Assembly (NCBI GenBank): GCA_034406715.1
Contig: CP137870.1
Location: 1,054,001-1,118,000, forward strand
From: Rhodotorula mucilaginosa
Lineage: Eukaryota; Basidiomycota; Microbotryomycetes; Sporidiobolales; Sporidiobolaceae
Direction: 5' to 3'
Length of the DNA stretch: 64,000 bases
Positions 48,886-60,492 of the stretch are shown here, piece by piece (the first letter of the stretch is position 1; the number at the start of each line of letters is the position of its first letter). Below the pieces are notes generated by a model, which saw only the letters and a program-made list of their open reading frames with translations, did not search any database and was not told the DNA's origin. A program made the translations under genes and the position numbers.

Positions 48886-50179
48886 CTAAGCTGCTTCAAG
48901 GCGGGTGGCTCGAAACTCCTTGTAGCGCAGGCGGTACTCTTCGATCCAGCTGTGCAACGCTGCAGCATGCGAGGATGTGACCAGGCGATACGTCAATACG
49001 CGGTTGCTGTTTTCGAGGTCTGCCGGTATGCCGGTCGGAGTGAGACCCTGCGTGCAGCGCAGTGGCAAATGTCAGCGGAATGCTTGCCGGAGCGATACGA
49101 GAGCCCGAAAGAGACGGCACATGTGATGCGGCAAACTCTAGTGGATTTGTGTCCTGCGGGTAGCGACAGTGTCCACCCTGGTGGTATCAGTCCGGAAGAC
49201 CGAGCTTTTTCGGCGCACTGTCTCGGAGACCAGAACTTACGATGACCATCAACATGGCAGGACCTATACCGCCATCCTCAGCCCGAGCCAAGTCGCAGAC
49301 AGTGTAGAGTAAAGTTAAAAGTGCTGCGTTGACGAGTTCCGCCGCCGGGAGGGTGTCGTGATGATAAAAAAGATAGCCAGCGTAAGCAGCCGTCACAATG
49401 CGCCAGCCTTGCAGCGCAGGAAATAGAATTCTGGCTTTGTCTTCTTGTGGTAGCTCATGAAGAGGCTTCTCGTGTTCCCCGACGCTTGAAAGCTCGTAAA
49501 GGAGAGAGAGGAAATTGCGGTGACATCGCGGCAGAGATCGGTCGGAGCCAAACAATCGGAGGTTGCGATTGTACAGAGGCATTCTGACCCATACATTATT
49601 GACCTCGACATTGTACTTTGGGTGTAGGTTAGCCGAGTGGAGAACTAGGGGCATTCCCGAAGTTGCGCGCCGTCCGTCAAAATGCTCACTGAATCAGTTT
49701 GCCATTCGCAAGCATTGTTCATGAACTATAGCAGTATGTCCATGTCAGTTTTTAGTATATCATTTTCACTACCTGGCAGAGCAGTGACTGACCATGATCC
49801 GCGCGACCCAGCTGCCTTGAGTGTACTCGGCAAAGTTGACGTCGTGGTGCCCTTCGCTTTCCAGCTGAGCGCGGAGCTCTTCGAGTTTCTTGAAGACGAA
49901 CCAGATTACAGCCCGCTTTCGGACCTTGTCGGAGAAGCGACCGGGGTCAAAGATCGGTCCTACACGGGCGAGCATGATCTTTCGCCAGCCCCATCCAAGG
50001 CCAGGGAAACCCGCTTGACGAGCTGCCAGACGCTGGCAATAGTTGACTCGTCCCAAAAAATCATCCATCAACGGCAGATCGTAATGGGAATCCTCCTGCG
50101 GCCGAGCAGGCCATGGACCAAGCTGCTCGTCGTCCTCGCCTGCTCGCCGTGACTGCGGGAAATGCGGGTTGCTGTCCAT
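48886..50179 (-). CDS. Tandem-array family protein, copy A (unknown family)
   Basis: Four exons, all introns phase 0: 50179-49793 (129 codons), 49725-49690 (12 codons), 49615-49241 (125 codons), 49047-48886 (53 codons plus stop), about 319 residues. Shared family blocks: PHFPQSRR and LGPWP near the start, GRVNYCQRLAARQAG, GLGWGWRKI, ARVGPIFDP and WVARIM in exon 1; FLSLLYELSS, ALQGWRIVTAA and GPAMLMVI in exon 3; LHSWIEEYRLRYKEF in exon 4. No signal peptide or long hydrophobic helix, so probably a soluble, mostly helical protein. I do not recognise any known domain. Three more copies follow upstream in the same orientation. The constant exon plan argues for a real gene. Confidence 0.75.
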
Positions 50180-50303
50180 CGAAGAGCGGCGCGCACCGGG
50201 GCCGGCCGTGATAGCTCCCCGTTGGCGAAGCCAGGGTGGAATAAAGCTAGAGAGGCTTTTAGGCGCCCGCTGAACGCGGCACCGGTATGCGGAGCTCGGC
50301 TTG

Positions 50304-50311
50304 TCCGCGGA
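50304..50311 (-). promoter_or_regulatory. TCCGCGGA element upstream of copy A
   Basis: Perfect 8-base palindrome inside the block CTCGGCTTGTCCGCGGAGG, 125 bases before the copy A start codon. The same block precedes copies B, C and D. TCCGCGGA is the sequence of the yeast pleiotropic drug response element (Pdr1/Pdr3, Zn2Cys6 regulators); the factor here is unknown. Confidence 0.6.
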
Positions 50312-51132
50312 GGCCGCACGCGCACCTTATTCGAGCTCAGCATCCCGACTCAGGCGGCTGCGCTCGTGGTTCCGCCTCCGCCAGTCTACATATATATTCA
50401 TTCTGGAGCTGAGGCAACGATACCCTCTTGTAGCAGAAGTAGGTCAAGTTTTTTGTTTGTGAGGAGGGAAGTCAGATCATCGATCATTGCTCGCAATTCA
50501 AGATACTTGACTGAGCTCTCTTGCACGGGCGAGTCCGAGGTCGCAGATTAACTCCATGAATCTGCTGCCTATGACGATGAAAGACAAGTCTGATGGAGCT
50601 GAGAAAAAGGAGACCTTGGGGGAAGAGGCTGAGGAGTGCTAGGACTCGCCATACGGGTTCGTTTCGCTCTCGCTCCCGCAAGGCCTTTTCCGGATCTAAG
50701 TCCTTTTTCACTCGCTCATTTTCGCTTGAACCTTCGCTGACTTGATCTCTAGACTACTACCATAGTCCGGGGCTCAAGATCAAGACGACGACGCGGTATT
50801 CGGATGAGGCGGCGAGTGGAGGTTGGAGGAGGATCTCGGGCGCTCTTCGATGTAACATAACTCGCCCCTGGGCTCCCCTTCCCTCTCTTCTTCACCGCTC
50901 ATACCTTGCAATCTACGCTCAATTCAGTGTTATTGCTGCTATTGCGGAGCAGCTCTCGCCAACTCAGAGCGGGACACCCTGCAGCAGGTGATGAACCGGC
51001 ACAAGCCTCTTTACTTTCACAGACAAGAGCGAGTCAACTATGGATTACCAGATGAAGAACAGGAGTGAGAAGGGGATAAGGCAAGCTGAGAGCTACAAGA
51101 GTCCGAGACAATAGTGAATGAAGGGGTAAAGG
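50312..51132. other. Spacer between array copies A and B
   Basis: No gene. A TATA-like ACATATATATTC run lies near 50388-50400, upstream of copy A. Base composition looks AT-richer than in the housekeeping regions. Confidence 0.5.
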
Positions 51133-52449
51133 CTAGCACTGTTCAGGTTGCAGTTGAGTTGCTGTGAAAGCGCGGTAGATTTGGCGCAAGTTCTTAAACC
51201 ACTCATTGATCTGAACTGGCCAGACATCAGCATGCGCAGATGTGACTTTGCGATACAGGAAGACCTTGTTGTTTTCTTCAAGGGCTGCCGGTATCTCGCA
51301 TGGAGTAATGCCCTGCCATGCCGCGCGGTAGATGTACAGTCACCACTCCCTGCGGGCCCCTCCATGGCGTAGTGCAAGGGTAAGAAGGAGACGTACCTGT
51401 GAGGCTGCAAACACCAACAGATTGGTGTCCTATGTAGAGAATACCTTGTCAATACTGTACCTTTGTCGCGCAGCAGAAGCAGATCTCGAATATACAGATA
51501 CTCCGAGGGTTCACTCACAATGATCATCAGCATGGCAGATGCCATACCACCGTGAGGTGCACGAGCCATGTCACACATCCTATAGAGCAGAGTTACAAGT
51601 GCTTTGTTGATGCACTCAGCATGGTGGTATTGGTCAGGACTGCGAAAGACTTCGTGAAAGTGAGCAGCGGTTACGAGGCGCCAGCCTTGCAGTGCAAGGG
51701 GTAGAATACTATGGTTTTGATCCAGCTCAGCCAGAGGCGCCTGATGTCCCCCGGCACTCGAAATCTCATACAATAAAGAGATGAAGTTGCGCCGTCGTTG
51801 GGCGACATCGCCACGGGAAACAATTGATGTGAAGTCGCCAGTGTACAGGGGCAAGTTGACAGGTATATTGTTGTAGAGGGGCATGTTGGTGTGCTTCATG
51901 TGAAGGTCAGCCACACACCTGTCACCAGATCATCTTGTCAATCATGCACTGCAAAGAAAGAAATGCTCACCGAAGCAGTTTGCAGTGCGCATACATTATT
52001 GTAGAACTATGAGACCCCACACATGTATGGTCATTGTGGTGGTCATTTACTCCATAGCGTGTACGTCCACTCACCAGAATCTGCGCGACCCAACTGGTTT
52101 GACTGTATTCCGGCCAGGGATCACCCGCGTGGGTGAGCTCCTCTCGGAGCTCTTGCAGCTGCTGGAGGACAAAGTCTATGAGGCATTTCCTGCGGGACCT
52201 GCTGGAAAATTGGCCGAGACAGAAGATCGGACTGAGCCGGGCGACGAGTATCGCCGACCATCCGATTCCCAGTTCAGGGAGACTGGCTTGGCGAGCTGCG
52301 AGACGCCGGCAATACTCGACTCGTCCCACGAAGGTATCCATCAAGTATAGGTCATAATCTGAGTCTCGCTGTGGACCCACGGGCCATGGGCCAAGGTCGT
52401 CTCCTTGTCGTGCTTGCGGGACGTGCGGGTTGCCAGGGTTATGACTCAT
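51133..52449 (-). CDS. Tandem-array family protein, copy B (unknown family)
   Basis: Four exons: 52449-52075 (125 codons), 52006-51971 (12 codons), 51893-51519 (125 codons), 51312-51133 (59 codons plus stop), about 321 residues. All three introns are phase 0 as in copy A, and exons 2 and 3 have the same lengths as in A. Blocks: NPHVPQAR, LGPWP, GRVEYCRRLAARQA, GIGWSAI, ARLSPIF and TSWVAQIL in exon 1; micro-exon FYNNVCALQTAS; FISLLYEISSAGGH, ALQGWRLVTAA, LLYRMCDMARA and AMLMII in exon 3; VTSAHADVWPVQINEWFKNL in exon 4. Looks intact. The family is unrecognised and function cannot be assigned. Confidence 0.75.
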
Positions 52450-52582
52450 TAGACAGAGGTATGATCCTAGGGTTGGCTGAGGAGGACGGAGAGCCTGATG
52501 CGGTGGGGGTATAAGGGGGTGTCTGAGGGAAGGACAACCTGGTTGCTGGGTGTAGAGGCCCACGACATCCCTGCTCGGCTTG

Positions 52583-52590
52583 TCCGCGGA
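52583..52590 (-). promoter_or_regulatory. TCCGCGGA element upstream of copy B
   Basis: Palindrome within CTCGGCTTGTCCGCGGAGGA, 134 bases before the copy B start codon. Bases on either side are shared with copies A and C over about 20 positions, while the spacer to the start codon is not. Confidence 0.6.
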
Positions 52591-53347
52591 GGACGAGCCC
52601 TTTGGGTCGAGCTCGCGCCCCGTAAGTCCGTTAGAGCTTGGCAACCAGGTTCTGGGACTCCAGCTGTGTGACGATCTAGCACACCCAAAAAAGCACAGTC
52701 GAGAGGCAGCGTCACGGTTGCAAAAGCTCACGACCAAGCTGCGGCTTGCTGTGAAATGGCAGGCGGCATTTGTATGGAGACGGTGCCCTCGCCGCCTCGA
52801 TTTGACCGCCACAGACACTAGCTCCTGTCCAGTCAAGTTTACATTTGCTTGGCGAGCACGTTCGAATCGCCGATCGTATGCACGCTCCCCTGCGTCCGTT
52901 TTCCGTCCTCTTCCGGTCCGTTTCCTGTCCCCCCTCGCGTTCTGGCGACCGTCTTCCTATTTCCTTTGGGCTTCAGTTCTTCTTGCGTCACTTACGCTAA
53001 CACCTTAAGGTAAAGGCGACAAAGACGAGTTTGACGTAGACCAGAAAGGAAACGAAAGCACGCCGGCGGAGACGGAGTGAGAAGGCCAACCGTCGGCCCA
53101 AACCGGCCGGTCACCGCACTCCTTGATCTTCAAACACCTCTACAGCTGTGCCTCGGACCAGCATGAGACTTGGTCATTCGATATAGTGCTTTCTTCTTTT
53201 CAAGGTCTCGAATCGCGTACCCTCACTCACCGGGAGAGCGTTGGACAGCTCAAGCATCATTTTCCTTTTGCCACTCGTCAAGAGCGTTCTGCACACCTCA
53301 CAGTGTATGCACACTCCTTGCCCAGACAAGACAATGTTTTACTTGTG
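52591..53347. other. Spacer between array copies B and C
   Basis: No gene recognised; short overlapping open frames only. Contains the promoter of copy B and the 3' flank of copy C. Confidence 0.5.
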
Positions 53348-54713
53348 CTAGTGAGTGGTATTGTCGCCTGTATGCCCCGGCAGCACGCTACAGGCTTCGA
53401 ATTGACTGTCTTGGAATCTTTCATAAACATCACGATACCCTTCGATCCAGTCGTGCAGGGCTTCGGCATCCGGAGAGGTGACTTCAAGATACATCGAGAC
53501 ATTGTCCGTACTTGCAAGTGCGGCTGGGAGTCTGGTCATCGGAGCAAGGCGCCGCAATGGTGTTTCGGGGCGGCTGCAGTGTCAGTAAACCCGGTGACAT
53601 TTTCGCGGGAGAACGAGGGCAAGAAAGGGGACAATATGTACCAGCCGTTTCGCAAGTTCCGCTGGGCTCGTGTCCTGTGCACCGACGCCACAAGGTTCTA
53701 TGGTCAGGACTTTTCGCTTGAATTCTGAATTCTGAAAGGACCTTTCGCTTGAAAGCTGGGGCAAGCTCTCCATCAGTGCCCATGACAGTCACTTACGATG
53801 ATCATGAGCATGGCAGGCCCTACGCCGCACTCTTTTGCAAAAGCCATGGCATACATGCTGTACAATGACTTAGCGAGCCTCTCGAGAACAACTTGGGCGG
53901 TTGAAAGCCTTTTGTCATCTCCGAAGAGGTGGCCAAACTGCACACCCATCACGACGTGCCAGCCTCGCAGCGCATGGGATAGAACGCTGGCTTCACTGTC
54001 TTGAGCCAGAGCATGGGTCGGTGTCTCGACGCTTGAGATCTCATAAAGCAGGGAGAGGAATTGGAACCGGAGTGCAGTCTTGTCGACCTGAGAGTTCTCA
54101 GGATCAGGGGTCATGATGCTGCCGCTGTGTAGGGGTGGATTCAGGCGGGCGTAATTGCCCGGCTTCTCAACGCGAGGCCAGCCAAGCAAAGCGGGTCAGA
54201 ATCCTGATTCGGTGGCCGCTCCGTCCGACAATGTGCTTACCGCTTCAGCTTGCAATGCGCATACAGTGTGCTCGAGCTGCAGGTGCAAGCATGTGAGAGT
54301 ACTTCGCCGCGGGAAAGGATAGTCGACTGACCAAGAGCTGCGCCACCGAGCTGATTCGACTCCGCTCCGTGAGGTTGAAACTTGACATTGAGTCCCTCCT
54401 GCTCGACAAGCTTGTTTCGGAGCTCGTCCAGTCTGTCAAAGACCCACATGACAAGATCTTTGTTGGCGTTCCTCGAGAGTCGATCCGGGTCAAAGATCGG
54501 ACCCAGACAGGCAAGCGTGATGGACCGCCATCCAAATCCGAGGCCACGTAGGCGGCCCACACGAGCTGCAAGACGCTGACAGTAGTTGACTCTGCCCACA
54601 AATATGCTGTTTAGTTCGTAATCTAGATCGAGACTTGGACAAGCAGGCCAGACGCCGAGCTCGTCGTCTTCGTCGCCCCGCCGTGACTGCGGGACATGCG
54701 GGTTGTGCCTCAT
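53348..54713 (-). CDS. Tandem-array family protein, copy C (possibly impaired)
   Basis: Same plan as copies A and B: exon 1 from 54713, micro-exon 54276-54241 (12 codons, LEHTVCALQAEA), exon 3 54162-53797 (122 codons) and a last exon ending at 53348. Exon 1 has NPHVPQSRRG, LGVWP, GRVNYCQRLAAR, GFGWRSI, LGPIFDPDRLS. Exon 3 has FLSLLYEISSVE, ALRGWHVVM and GPAMLMII; the last exon has ALHDWIEGYRDVYERF. If the donor homologous to the one in A and B (after 54332) is used, exon 1 is one base over a whole number of codons. The frame coding SVAQLL at its end differs from the frame of the rest. Either the gene is broken here or it is spliced differently. Confidence 0.65.
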
Positions 54714-54840
54714 CGCGGCGCAGGGGCGATCTTGGGCCTGAGGACGACAGATACCCAGACTGTGGGTCACCAGAGCAGCTGAGAAGTAGATAGAAGCCCG
54801 TGAGAGCCTGACGTGCTCGAGAAAAGCGCTGCTCGGCTTG

Positions 54841-54849
54841 TCCGCCGGA
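54841..54849 (-). promoter_or_regulatory. TCCGCCGGA variant element upstream of copy C
   Basis: Same block as in copies A and B (GCTCGGCTTG before it, GGAC after it) but with one extra C between the two half-sites, giving TCCG-C-CGGA, 128 bases before the copy C start codon. Copy C is also the one with a suspect reading frame. Confidence 0.55.
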
Positions 54850-55118
54850 GGACACACGAGCCCTTATTAGCTCGAGCTGACGTCCAAATCATGTTCAAGC
54901 TCGGGATCCACGACTGGAGCGCAAGCAACATACCCTTCTAGACAGGGCACATGCGGGAAAGCATTGTCGAGATGCAGCTGCTCGCGGTCGTATAAAGCTC
55001 AAGACCAAGTAGCCTGCTACATAATTCCCGAAAGGCATTACGCTCAGAAAGAGTCCAAATGAACGACTATACAAGCTGTGCTCAACACTCAGCAGTAATC
55101 TCTTTTGGGGTATACATG
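54850..55118. other. Spacer between array copies C and D
   Basis: Short (about 270 bases), with no gene; upstream flank of copy C and 3' flank of copy D. Confidence 0.5.
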
Positions 55119-56500
55119 TCAATGGTCTGCCTGCCTGCGGTGGGTCACGCGTTCGAGTTGGCGTGCGTGACGACCGTCGAATTCCGCGCCCATCCTTCGG
55201 TACTCCGCAATCCATGTCGGTGTCTGAGCAGTTGTGCCTTGTTCGCTGCAATCAAGGTATAGTGAGAGGTTGGTTCTGGAATTTGAGGGCATTCCCTCAA
55301 GCTGTTGCACGACCAGACGGTCCAGTTCACGAGAGGAAGGAAGGAGCTGCAACAAAGTGCCAAGAGGCCCGTTGCGAGCTTGCTCAGCCAAAGATCACAG
55401 CGGACATGGATGAGAAGAAGAGAGCAACTGTACATTTTGTGGGACGAGCTCCTCCGGCCGAATGTCCTGGTACAGAGAGCGAGTTAGTGACAGAGACTTT
55501 GATGAGGCCAGGGCGCACGTACAATGACAAAGAGCATTGCGGGACCGACACCGAATCCCTCTGTGCGAGCCATGGCCCACATTTTGTCGAGCAGTGATGC
55601 CAAGGACTTGTTGAGCTGGTGGGCTATTCGGAGATGAGGACCGGTTGTTGCGAGATTGTCGGGGTCTCTCGACAAATCACGGCGGTCTGTCGAAAGACGA
55701 TGATCCGTTTCGAATGTGTACCTGAATACAGCAGCTATGAACACCTGCCAGCCTTGCAGCGCATGAAATAGTATCCTGAATGAGTCGTCCGGGTCCATTT
55801 CAGACACGGGTCCATCGTGCACGTAAAGACTGGAAATTTCGATCAGTAAAGAACGGAAGTCCTGGCGACACTGGTCCAGTGTGCCCTCAGATCCGGGCAC
55901 TTTGATGTCCTCGTCGAAGAGGGGTAGATTCCCCTGGTACCGGTCATCCTTCAAGGGGCGGCCAGGTGAGTCGAGCACAATCAAATGAGAAGGCCAGAGA
56001 CGGAAGCACGCACAAAGTCGCGTCGCAGCGCGTACGGATCGTTGCGAACCTGCAGGAGAGAGTGGCGATCAGCTCTGAACCCAAGTGTCGTTGCACACTT
56101 GCCACCCAGCACCCACCAAGACTTGGGCAATCCAGCCCGCCCGAGTGACTCCAGAACCACGGGGATTCGGCTCTCTCGTTTCGAGCGCGTCCTTGATTCT
56201 GCCCAGTTCGTACAAGACAAAGCCTCGGAGCTCCACGACGTGGTCATGGTCGTCCTGATCGTTCGAGACGAACAGCGGCCCGAGTCGAGCTGACATGATG
56301 GCTGCCCATCCGACTCCGAGGCCTGGACACCCAGCTCGGCTGGCCGCTAGACGCTGCAAGTAGCCGAGACGAGCCTCGAAGATGGATCTAAGGTTCATGT
56401 CGTGCGTGATCTGATGACCGGGAATCTCGGGCCATGCGCCAAGCTGATCGAGCTCGCCCGCTGAACGCGAGAGCGGAACATGGGGGTGGAACGCGGGCAT
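55119..56500 (-). CDS. Tandem-array family protein, copy D (most diverged)
   Basis: Four-exon plan retained: exon 1 56500-56117 (128 codons), a 36-base micro-exon VRNDPYALRRDF near 56019-56054, exon 3 from 55948 (about 143 codons) and a last exon ending at 55119. Shared blocks are HPHVPLSRS, LGAWP, ARLGYLQRLAASRAG, GVGWAAI, ARLGPLF and WIAQVL in exon 1; FRSLLIEISS, ALQGW, LLDKMWAMAR and GPAMLFVI in exon 3; TWIAEYRRMGAEF in the last. Exon 3 carries an insertion of about 20 residues after the ALQGW block (around RLSTDRRDLSRDPDN) that A, B and C lack. Looks open throughout. Family unknown. Confidence 0.7.
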
Positions 56501-56897
56501 CCAGAAGGGGGATGCAAACCCGACGGGAAAGTGGCAGGACGGTGTCGACGACGCTCAAGCCAAGAGAGTGAGGAGAAAGAGCAGTCGAAAACGTTCGTGC
56601 GCGTAAACCCTCACGGCCGTTGCGCCTGTTCGGGTTGTCCGCGGAGGACGGACGGAGCGCCCAAACGGTCAAGGTGGCAGTGCTCGCGGCGCCGAGCGTT
56701 CGCGTCACCACGGACGCTCCAGAAGCAACGGTCGCCGCCTTTGAATGCAACGGTTTGGGTCTGCAGAACCTGCCCACGCGCAGCGAACGGTTCGGATGGC
56801 CGTTCATCCAAGCAGGGCGGAAACGTCGATGGCGTATGTACAGCTTGCAAGTGCTGGGCTCTAAAGAGGTCGTGTTACAAATGCGTGTAATAGTCGC
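56501..56897. other. Spacer between array copy D and the Tom5-like gene
   Basis: Contains the copy D promoter with its palindrome and the 3' flank of the Tom5-like gene. An open frame of about 136 codons on the plus strand (56480-56890) has no recognisable similarity and is Cys/Arg rich by composition; I do not call it. Confidence 0.5.
56638..56645 (-). promoter_or_regulatory. TCCGCGGA element upstream of copy D
   Basis: Palindrome within TTCGGGTTGTCCGCGGAGGA, 138 bases before the copy D start codon. Here the surrounding bases beyond about 20 positions no longer match the other copies, which makes the retained core stand out. Confidence 0.6.
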
Positions 56898-58388: not shown

Positions 58389-60492
58389 ATGGATGAGCAC
58401 TACGACTTTGTGAGGCGCTCGCTAGGCTTTCATCGAGGTGCTGTGATGCTCATGGCAAGCCCTGGCAACCCCTGCTGACTCCCGCTCACGTCGCATCCTC
58501 GTCCACCGCCATCATCATCATCGTCTCGGTCGCTGGTCATTGCCTGCGCGCTCTAGATCATCCTCGGCACCGGCCTGACCGAATGTGTCCTCTCTGGACT
58601 GCTCTCGGTCGAGGGCAAGAAGGTCCTCCACATGGACAGGTGCGTGCCTCTCGTCGCCATTCCACGTCGGATCATGCTGCCGCGGCCCTCTCTGAACGGG
58701 GGGCACCAGTACAAGGGTCCTGCGTGATTGCGAGTGGGAACGGAAGCTGACTGTATTCTGTACCGCCAGGAACGACTACTACGGCGCCGAGTCGGCCAGT
58801 CTCAACTTGACCCAGGTTTGTCGACGCGTTGACCTGCAAGCACTGTGACCAGGTCGCAAACCTACCGGTCATCGCGGAGAGCGTCAACTACTGACACAGT
58901 CGATGTACTCCTCTGCAGCTCTACAAGAAGTTCCGAGGCACGGAACCGCCTGCCGAGCTGGGCCGCGACCGCGACTACGCCATCGACCTCATTCCCAAGT
59001 TGTCAGTGCCGTTCACCACCCTCGCTGCCACGCAGATAGTTTCAGTTGACATGAGCCGGACCACACAGCATGATGGCGAACGGCGAGATGACCAAGATGC
59101 TCGTGCACACCGACGTTACGCGCTACCTCGAGTTCAAGCAAATCGCCGGATCCTACGTCCTCCGCGACGGCCGGATCGCCAAGGTCCCCGCGACCGAGAT
59201 GGAGGCGATCAAGAGTCCCTTGCTGGGCCTGTTTGAGAAGCGCCGGGCGAGGAACTTTTTCCTCTGGGTCCAGAACTACAACGAGGAGAACCCGAGCACT
59301 CACCAGGGTGAGGCTTTCTTGCGCTTCGCTCCCGGCGCGTCTGCTCGCATGCGCTGTGCTATCTGTCGCTAATATTCTACCACTTTAACCCGCGCAGGCC
59401 TCAGCCTCGACAAGAACACGATGAAGGAGGTCTACTACAAGTTTGGTCTCGAGGCGGGCACCCAGGACTTTATCGGCCATGCCATGGCTCTTTACCTCGA
59501 CGACGAGTGCGTGCCATTCCTGTTGACGGTGTCGCGAATGTCACTGATGCTCGACCGCCCGCCCGCAGCTACTTGACCCAGCCCGCTCGGGAGACGTACA
59601 ACCGAATCATGCTCTACACCTCTTCCATGGCCCGCTTCGGCAAGTCGCCGTACCTCTACCCCCTGTACGGCCTCGGCGAGCTCCCGCAAGGCTTTGCTCG
59701 TTTGTCGGCCATCTACGGCGGCACGTACATGCTCGACAAGCCGGTCGACAAGATCGAGTACGATGACAAGGGCAAGTTTGTCGGCGTCACCTCGGGCGGC
59801 GAGACCGTCAAGGCCGACAAGGTCATCGGCGACCCGTCCTACTTTGTAGACGCGAGCGGGAAGGGCGGCGCCGACAAGGAGGACAAGGTGTTCTTGGAGG
59901 GCCACGTCGTTCGCGCGATCTGCATCCTGCGGCACCCGATCCCGAATACGGACGACTCGGACTCGGTCCAGATCATCATCCCGCAGAAGCAGGTCAACCG
60001 CAAGCACGGTAAGTCGCGACAACGTGGGTGCTGCTTGATGTGATGTGATGGCCGAATTGACACGGTCTGTTCCGCCCCAGATATCTATGTCGCCGAGGTC
60101 TCGTCCACGCACAACGTCTGCGCCAAGGATGTCTACGTTGCCATGGTGTCTACGATCGTCGAGACCGGCAACCCGGAAGCCGAACTCGACGCCGGTCTCA
60201 AGCTCCTCGGACCGATTCACGAGAAGTGAGTCCCCCTTTTGCGGGCGGATCTCCATACGCAAAAAGGACCGCCACTGACTTGGTCCGTGATCGAAAACGC
60301 AGGTTCGTGTCGATCTCGCCGATCTACTCGCCGGCGTCGTCTGGATCGCACGACAACGTCTTTATCACGCGATCCTACGACGCGACTTCGCACTTCGAGA
60401 CCGTCTGCGACGACGTCAAGGAGGTGTGGCGCCGCGCGATCGGCGAGGAACTCGTTCTGAAGAAGCGGGAGGATGCCTTGCAGGCTGAGTAA
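58389..60492 (+). CDS. GDI1: Rab GDP-dissociation inhibitor
   Basis: Extracts prenylated GDP-bound Rab GTPases from membranes and delivers them to the right compartment. Nine exons; the first encodes only MDEHYDF, the next [20 protein letters not shown]. Family signatures: [71 protein letters not shown] and [20 protein letters not shown], then GDPSYF and the C-terminal [16 protein letters not shown]. About 450 residues, the usual size. GDI rather than Rab escort protein is indicated by the compact length and lack of the long insert. It looks complete. Confidence 0.95.

Follow-up and report, generated by a model that had tools for sequence, protein, structure and literature searches.

The 64,000-nucleotide stretch of Rhodotorula mucilaginosa DNA analysed here (contig CP137870.1, positions 1,054,001 to 1,118,000; the window) carries at 48886-56500, on the minus strand, four tandem copies (A to D) of a gene family without known domain, and a 15-bp element, TCCGCGGACAAGCCG, precedes each ATG at 114-127 nucleotides (nt) in all four copies. 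We tentatively propose, at slightly less than even probability, that this is an old, maintained and lineage-restricted family of soluble helical proteins built of two repeats, and that one factor acting on the element co-activates this and other fast-changing orphan arrays, the products being adaptors or decoys. An original prediction for this DNA had described the array, and the possible internal repeat, the common promoter element and the other arrays bearing it had not been spotted in it.

All four copies follow the exon plan 375-387 / 36 / 366-426 / 33 / 162-228 nt, in a window of 60% guanine plus cytosine. The four minus-strand copies and the shared sequence blocks quoted in the original prediction are present, but its four-exon plan was wrong, since two micro-exons (36 and 33 nt) had been missed and the genes have five exons. 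Copies A, C and D are open across the five exons (368, 332 and 330 amino acids, respectively), with introns of 56-89 nt that are in phase 0 throughout, as had been predicted; this does not hold for copy B, whose exon 4/5 junction is off phase and which breaks the family frame in this assembly, so that three of the four predicted genes are open. Protein identity to copy D is 56% (C), 50% (B) and 39% (A) in exon 1 and 48% (C), 38% (B) and 39% (A) in exon 3, and BLASTP gave E values of 6e-106 for C versus D and 2e-51 for A versus D. The junctions of exons 1-4 of A, C and D were reproduced by a simple exon-chaining script launched at each ATG, which is only partly independent because its codon table was trained on these array genes and its chains overran gene borders. 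With a stop bonus, the script recovered all five exons of C and D and lengthened exon 5 of A; the 5' border of that exon is the least certain, the chaining scripts having preferred an acceptor 36 nt upstream. A free gene prediction with low intron penalty over-split the genes and was discarded for exon counts.

A 20-base form of the element, CCTCCGCGGACAAGCCGAGC, or a variant of it is found upstream of every copy, and the window contains four matches to the element versus 0.02 expected. Between copies, 15-20 of these 20 bases are alike, versus 24-34% in the ungapped flanks. The first half, TCCGCGGA, is present before A, C and D and altered before B. In the whole genome (20.35 Mb, 19 contigs) the first 14 bases occur exactly 116 times and the reversed pattern not at all. 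Base 15 is G in all eight sites of loci chosen by the 14-mer alone and in 34/35 exact sites of later stretches chosen from mixed lists; because this base is near-invariant and the bases on either side (one before, those after base 15) vary, the element is about 15 bp long with sharp ends. Among 100 listed sites of the 116, 28 lie within 3 kb of another site, when about 3 would be expected. The features of the four copies are the following.

56628..56647, minus strand: element at A, 127 nt before the ATG, 18/20 bases as in C and D
56117..56500, minus strand: A exon 1, predicted N-terminal helical unit (384 nt, ATG at 56500)
56014..56049, minus strand: A micro-exon 2 (36 nt, 12 codons)
55523..55948, minus strand: A exon 3, predicted second helical unit (426 nt)
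55434..55466, minus strand: A micro-exon 4 (33 nt, 11 codons)
55119..55346, minus strand: A exon 5 to stop (228 nt)
54831..54850, minus strand: element at B, 117 nt before the ATG, TCCGCGGA half altered
54333..54713, minus strand: B exon 1, whose 3' end region is out of frame with the family in this assembly
54241..54276, minus strand: B micro-exon 2 (36 nt)
53797..54162, minus strand: B exon 3 (366 nt, open)
53642..53674, minus strand: B micro-exon 4 (33 nt)
53348..53573, minus strand: B exon 5, junction with exon 4 not phase 0
52573..52592, minus strand: element at C, 123 nt before the ATG, exact
52075..52449, minus strand: C exon 1 (375 nt)
51971..52006, minus strand: C micro-exon 2 (36 nt)
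51519..51893, minus strand: C exon 3 (375 nt)
51397..51429, minus strand: C micro-exon 4 (33 nt)
51133..51312, minus strand: C exon 5 to stop (180 nt)
50294..50313, minus strand: element at D, 114 nt before the ATG, exact
49793..50179, minus strand: D exon 1 (387 nt)
49690..49725, minus strand: D micro-exon 2 (36 nt)
49241..49615, minus strand: D exon 3 (375 nt)
49121..49153, minus strand: D micro-exon 4 (33 nt)
48886..49047, minus strand: D exon 5 to stop (162 nt)

Within the libraries searched, the family was indeed unrecognised. Pfam gave no family above cut-off for any of the five sequences scanned, namely A, C, D and two B pieces, NCBIfam a single weak match in one of four exon-3 members, and PDB weak matches only; these weak matches, some of them to designed proteins, were set aside. 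When the exon-3 protein of D was used as a single query against this genome, only the four array copies were recovered, in five matches, a search that distant relatives would escape, and a degenerate DNA pattern for the PHVPQSR block gave no match, the pattern having specified a serine codon other than the one found in the copies. Full-length D found no relative among 5.8 billion proteins, whereas exon-sized profile searches of the same set yielded 15 exon-3 and 18 exon-1 matches, a difference probably due to a database of single exons and to length-limited candidates. Fourteen of the 15 exon-3 matches and 16 of the 18 exon-1 matches are of outside origin, the rest not being marked as outside; these profile searches, of the kind proposed as a check in the original prediction, thus brought up exon-sized relatives in other assemblies. 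Among the papers listed in literature searches none concerned this family or the element, and the 14-mer gave no paper.

In the exon-3 tree, copies A, B and D each cluster with their own outside rows, so the duplications are older than the splits from these relatives, with the caveats that C and P0014 are long-branched and of unsure placement and that, according to a warning of the program, groups A and B meet through their long branches. In exon 3, outside relatives are 82-87% identical to D (4 rows), 72-79% to B (3 rows, a 99% row left out) and 65-78% to A (4 rows, a 98% row left out). The array had been considered either old or fast-evolving, and both appear to apply, as the A, B and D groups predate those splits and the identities to outside relatives are 65-87%. 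The longest-contig value 58758 is common to rows P0004, P0011, P0012, P0020 and P0024 of A, B and D, and the value 4631 to rows P0009, P0010 and P0025 of A and B; these equal values suggest that the copies stay together as an array in other assemblies. By eye, the exon-3 end is followed by V and then S or R in 15/15 rows, as expected from a GT donor, and the exon-1 end by V and then S or G in 12/18, the remaining six including the window's own B and the doubtful P0031. In exons 1 and 3 the third codon position is the most divergent in 6/6 copy pairs, as constrained coding sequence would be expected to show.

Neither signal peptide nor membrane helix was indicated in A, C and D on hydropathy alone, in agreement with the original prediction: the N-terminal 19-residue maxima are below zero (-0.07, -0.41 and -0.86, respectively) and the highest 19-residue means 1.35, 1.71 and 1.56. 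AlphaFold2 modelling from four-row alignments gave a helical exon-1 unit (predicted local distance difference test, pLDDT, 72.4; predicted template modelling score, pTM, 0.67) and a mostly helical exon-3 unit (pLDDT 63.5, pTM 0.58). Each model comprises three main helices, in similar order, and a short final one, with a further short helix in the exon-1 model and two low-confidence strands at the front of the exon-3 model. The exon-1 and exon-3 profiles built from all rows align at the signature GW..I..A..GPIF (score 31.5, P 0.00012, probability 56%). In the control setting they score 28.3, whereas none of 150 column shuffles exceeded 18.6 and the reversed profile gave 13.2; with the micro-exons included, exons 1+2 versus exons 3+4 score 28.2 against a shuffle maximum of 22.7, 0/60 shuffles being as high. 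Because this signature beats the shuffles and the order of the helices is similar, it is proposed that the protein may consist of two helical repeats, each closed by a micro-exon.

Sets of similar open reading frames (ORFs) were also found at element-dense places on contigs C3, C4, C7 (two places), C10 and C16. When ten proteins or protein pieces from element-linked arrays or pairs were scanned against Pfam, none reached the cut-off; a single match, to DUF7939, fell short of it. A grouping of neighbouring, overlapping 3-kb stretches was partly trivial and is not relied on.

Under the proposed mechanism, exon 1 with micro-exon 2 would form the first unit, exon 3 with micro-exon 4 the second unit and exon 5 a short tail. 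A single DNA-binding factor would read the 15-bp element at the window array, at several orphan arrays and at some ordinary genes; a zinc-cluster-type factor is a fair guess, because the first half of the element is identical to a drug response element of yeast. Such a factor would switch on a set of fast-changing proteins together, and these products might, in the least certain step, be intracellular helical adaptors or decoys. Tandem duplication would diversify the proteins under a changing partner, for instance a competitor, a virus or another strain.

Several results weigh against this reading. The array loci were picked for element density and are not an unbiased survey, so the link between element and orphan arrays is biased by choice. 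In the upstream DNA of B-C and B-D, the similarity across the element widens to 46-50 bp when gaps are allowed, and the sharing of the element within the array may therefore be partly inherited. As to the repeat, confidence in the exon-3 model is low to moderate and the other four models are at 48-54; the profile match spans just 18 columns with an hhalign probability of 56% or 31%, the comparison from four-row alignments alone gives P 0.035, and the C10 genes, which share the exon plan, have halves without repeat (score 10.6, 35/60 shuffles as high). Besides, four of seven scanned script proteins at isolated element sites (taken from 12 listed) have ordinary Pfam domains, namely PQ-loop, M16 peptidase, short-chain dehydrogenase and glycosyltransferase, and since ordinary genes also adjoin the element, an orphan-only regulon is unsupported. 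These domains also favour the explanation that a general regulatory or core-promoter factor binds the element, the arrays carrying an ordinary promoter part with no special link to orphan genes. That would also fit with the great rigidity of the element (52/68 collected distinct sites are exact, up to one mismatch being allowed) and with its occurrence in both orientations with respect to the inferred gene, but 116 exact 14-mers in 20 Mb are few for such a factor and the sites are clustered, also at tandem sets of unknown genes, which makes this explanation possible but on balance unlikely.

Apart from these considerations, some individual element sites were recorded. On C4, a tandem repeat (L038, G000:C4:517000-526990) has a unit of 4,692 bp, 99.9% identical over the compared stretch, with one element per unit; the sites are at 520632, 525324 and 530016, the third keeping the 4,692-bp spacing. 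Two same-orientation copies with starts 30 bp apart are present in L012 (G000:C2:1517006-1517054), and one C10 gene (L044, G000:C10:99000-108900) has two upstream elements 109 bp apart, one with a single mismatch. In L041, L039 and L042 (G000:C7) the element and the similar ORFs lie on opposite strands; the element, if functional, thus seems to act in either orientation. L011 and L027 (G000:C2, ~1374 kb and ~1344 kb) are separate element sites beside similar ORFs, and the L011 script protein matches glycosyltransferase families.

Gene structure was compared between the window and the other element sites. The C10 genes have five phase-0 exons as in the window (486-522/36/390-426/36/33-267), and their micro-exons are 36/36 in 4/4 genes with loose limits (27-51 and 24-51 nt). 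The C2 gene L021 gave 456/36/468/36/120 at fixed sizes and micro-exons of 30/36 at loose sizes. In a control at window positions outside the array, 2/323 starts scored at least 45 and the best reached 101, above all true genes, the control being imperfect because genes do not start at most of its positions. At the other element sites examined, besides a second site of one C10 gene, the exact micro-exon plan scored above 20 only at L042 (27.8). The C10 micro-exons are mutually alike (LARTPPAMLERM, SLWTPGHVQAWM) and also resemble those of L021, L039 and L042; a pattern derived from them matched 10/597 slots, all of 36 nt, in L021, L039, L044 and L045, that is 8 places given the overlap of L045 with L044; setting aside the genes that supplied the pattern leaves L021 and L039 as the only independent hits.

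Homology between the window and C10 proteins was not borne out by profile comparison, as hhalign probabilities were below 1% in 4/4 pairs, with 2, 4, 5 and 57 of 60 shuffles as high. Between the window array and the other element-carrying orphan arrays no BLAST similarity was found, the profile comparison covering C10 only. Common descent of the window and C10-type families is thus a proposal resting on gene plan and element. Its extension, that most element-bearing orphan tandem arrays are one hyper-diverged superfamily of micro-exon-punctuated helical proteins in which sequence similarity has almost wholly disappeared while gene plan and element were kept, is improbable on our estimate. If true, a yeast-like fungus would possess a large and diversifying repertoire under common control.

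Copy B bears on whether the family is maintained. Its exon 1 loses the family frame before the donor, near the 3' end, and its exon 4/5 junction requires a phase change absent from A, C and D. This frame break may be an assembly error. Of its five outside exon-1 rows, P0021, P0023, P0024 and P0025 start at the family N-terminus and run in frame to the donor; the fifth, P0028, reaches the donor and matches B from residue 94 on only, and by eye its beginning resembles a different reading frame of exon 1, so that it may represent a second broken B elsewhere. P0019, without outside source, agrees with the window B over 121 residues, and four outside relatives (P0007, P0009, P0011 and P0013) were found for B exon 3. 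The broken frame, the altered element copy and the hint from P0028 could suggest that the array is a relic of once-active, now drifting genes with B already broken; however, A, C and D are fully open, third codon positions diverge most in every pair, outside rows keep their splice donors and in-frame reading is seen in four of the five outside rows of B exon 1, and we regard a relic as highly unlikely. It is also very unlikely that the proteins derive from a mobile-element or mycovirus protein captured and amplified by the host: orphan status, helical models and tandem arrays would fit this in a general way, but five phase-0 exons with conserved micro-exons speak for a long history as host genes and no Pfam match was obtained.

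The ORFs adjoining the array at 59055-60043 of the window look by eye like a Rab GDP-dissociation inhibitor, and the array therefore seems to be set among ordinary genes. Orphan arrays are usually studied singly, and a rigid common element would be a handle on many of them together, with one factor to find and one condition to seek, as well as a way to ask if gene structure and promoter outlast protein similarity.

Among known systems, the fungal NLR and HET incompatibility proteins are fast-evolving intracellular families, as is proposed here for the array proteins, and these differ in that A, C, D and the B pieces gave no Pfam match to HET, NACHT or NB-ARC. In budding yeast, TCCGCGGA is given as a consensus of the pleiotropic drug response element (PDRE) (PMC5539612). 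The first 8 bases of the element equal this PDRE consensus, whereas the element continues with 7 near-invariant bases, CAAGCCG. Unlike what is expected of a Pdr1/Pdr3-type regulon, no drug pump was found among the scanned neighbour genes, with ABC-transporter Pfam matches in 0/17 element-linked proteins (7 from isolated sites and 10 from arrays or pairs, a small chosen sample). For effector genes of plant-parasitic nematodes, promoter motifs are reported (PMC8601627), and a short motif on genes of separate origin is read there as a sign of joint control, as here. The array proteins differ from these effectors in having no secretion signal by hydropathy and no known host, and the element is also found near ordinary genes. 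The nematode motif is called the DOG box.

Lineage-specific tandem families with fast divergence, no known domain and restricted distribution are found in fungi. The window array is likewise tandem, fast-diverging, without known domain and restricted, and it adds to this type of family a rigid 15-bp element common to other arrays and two conserved micro-exons.

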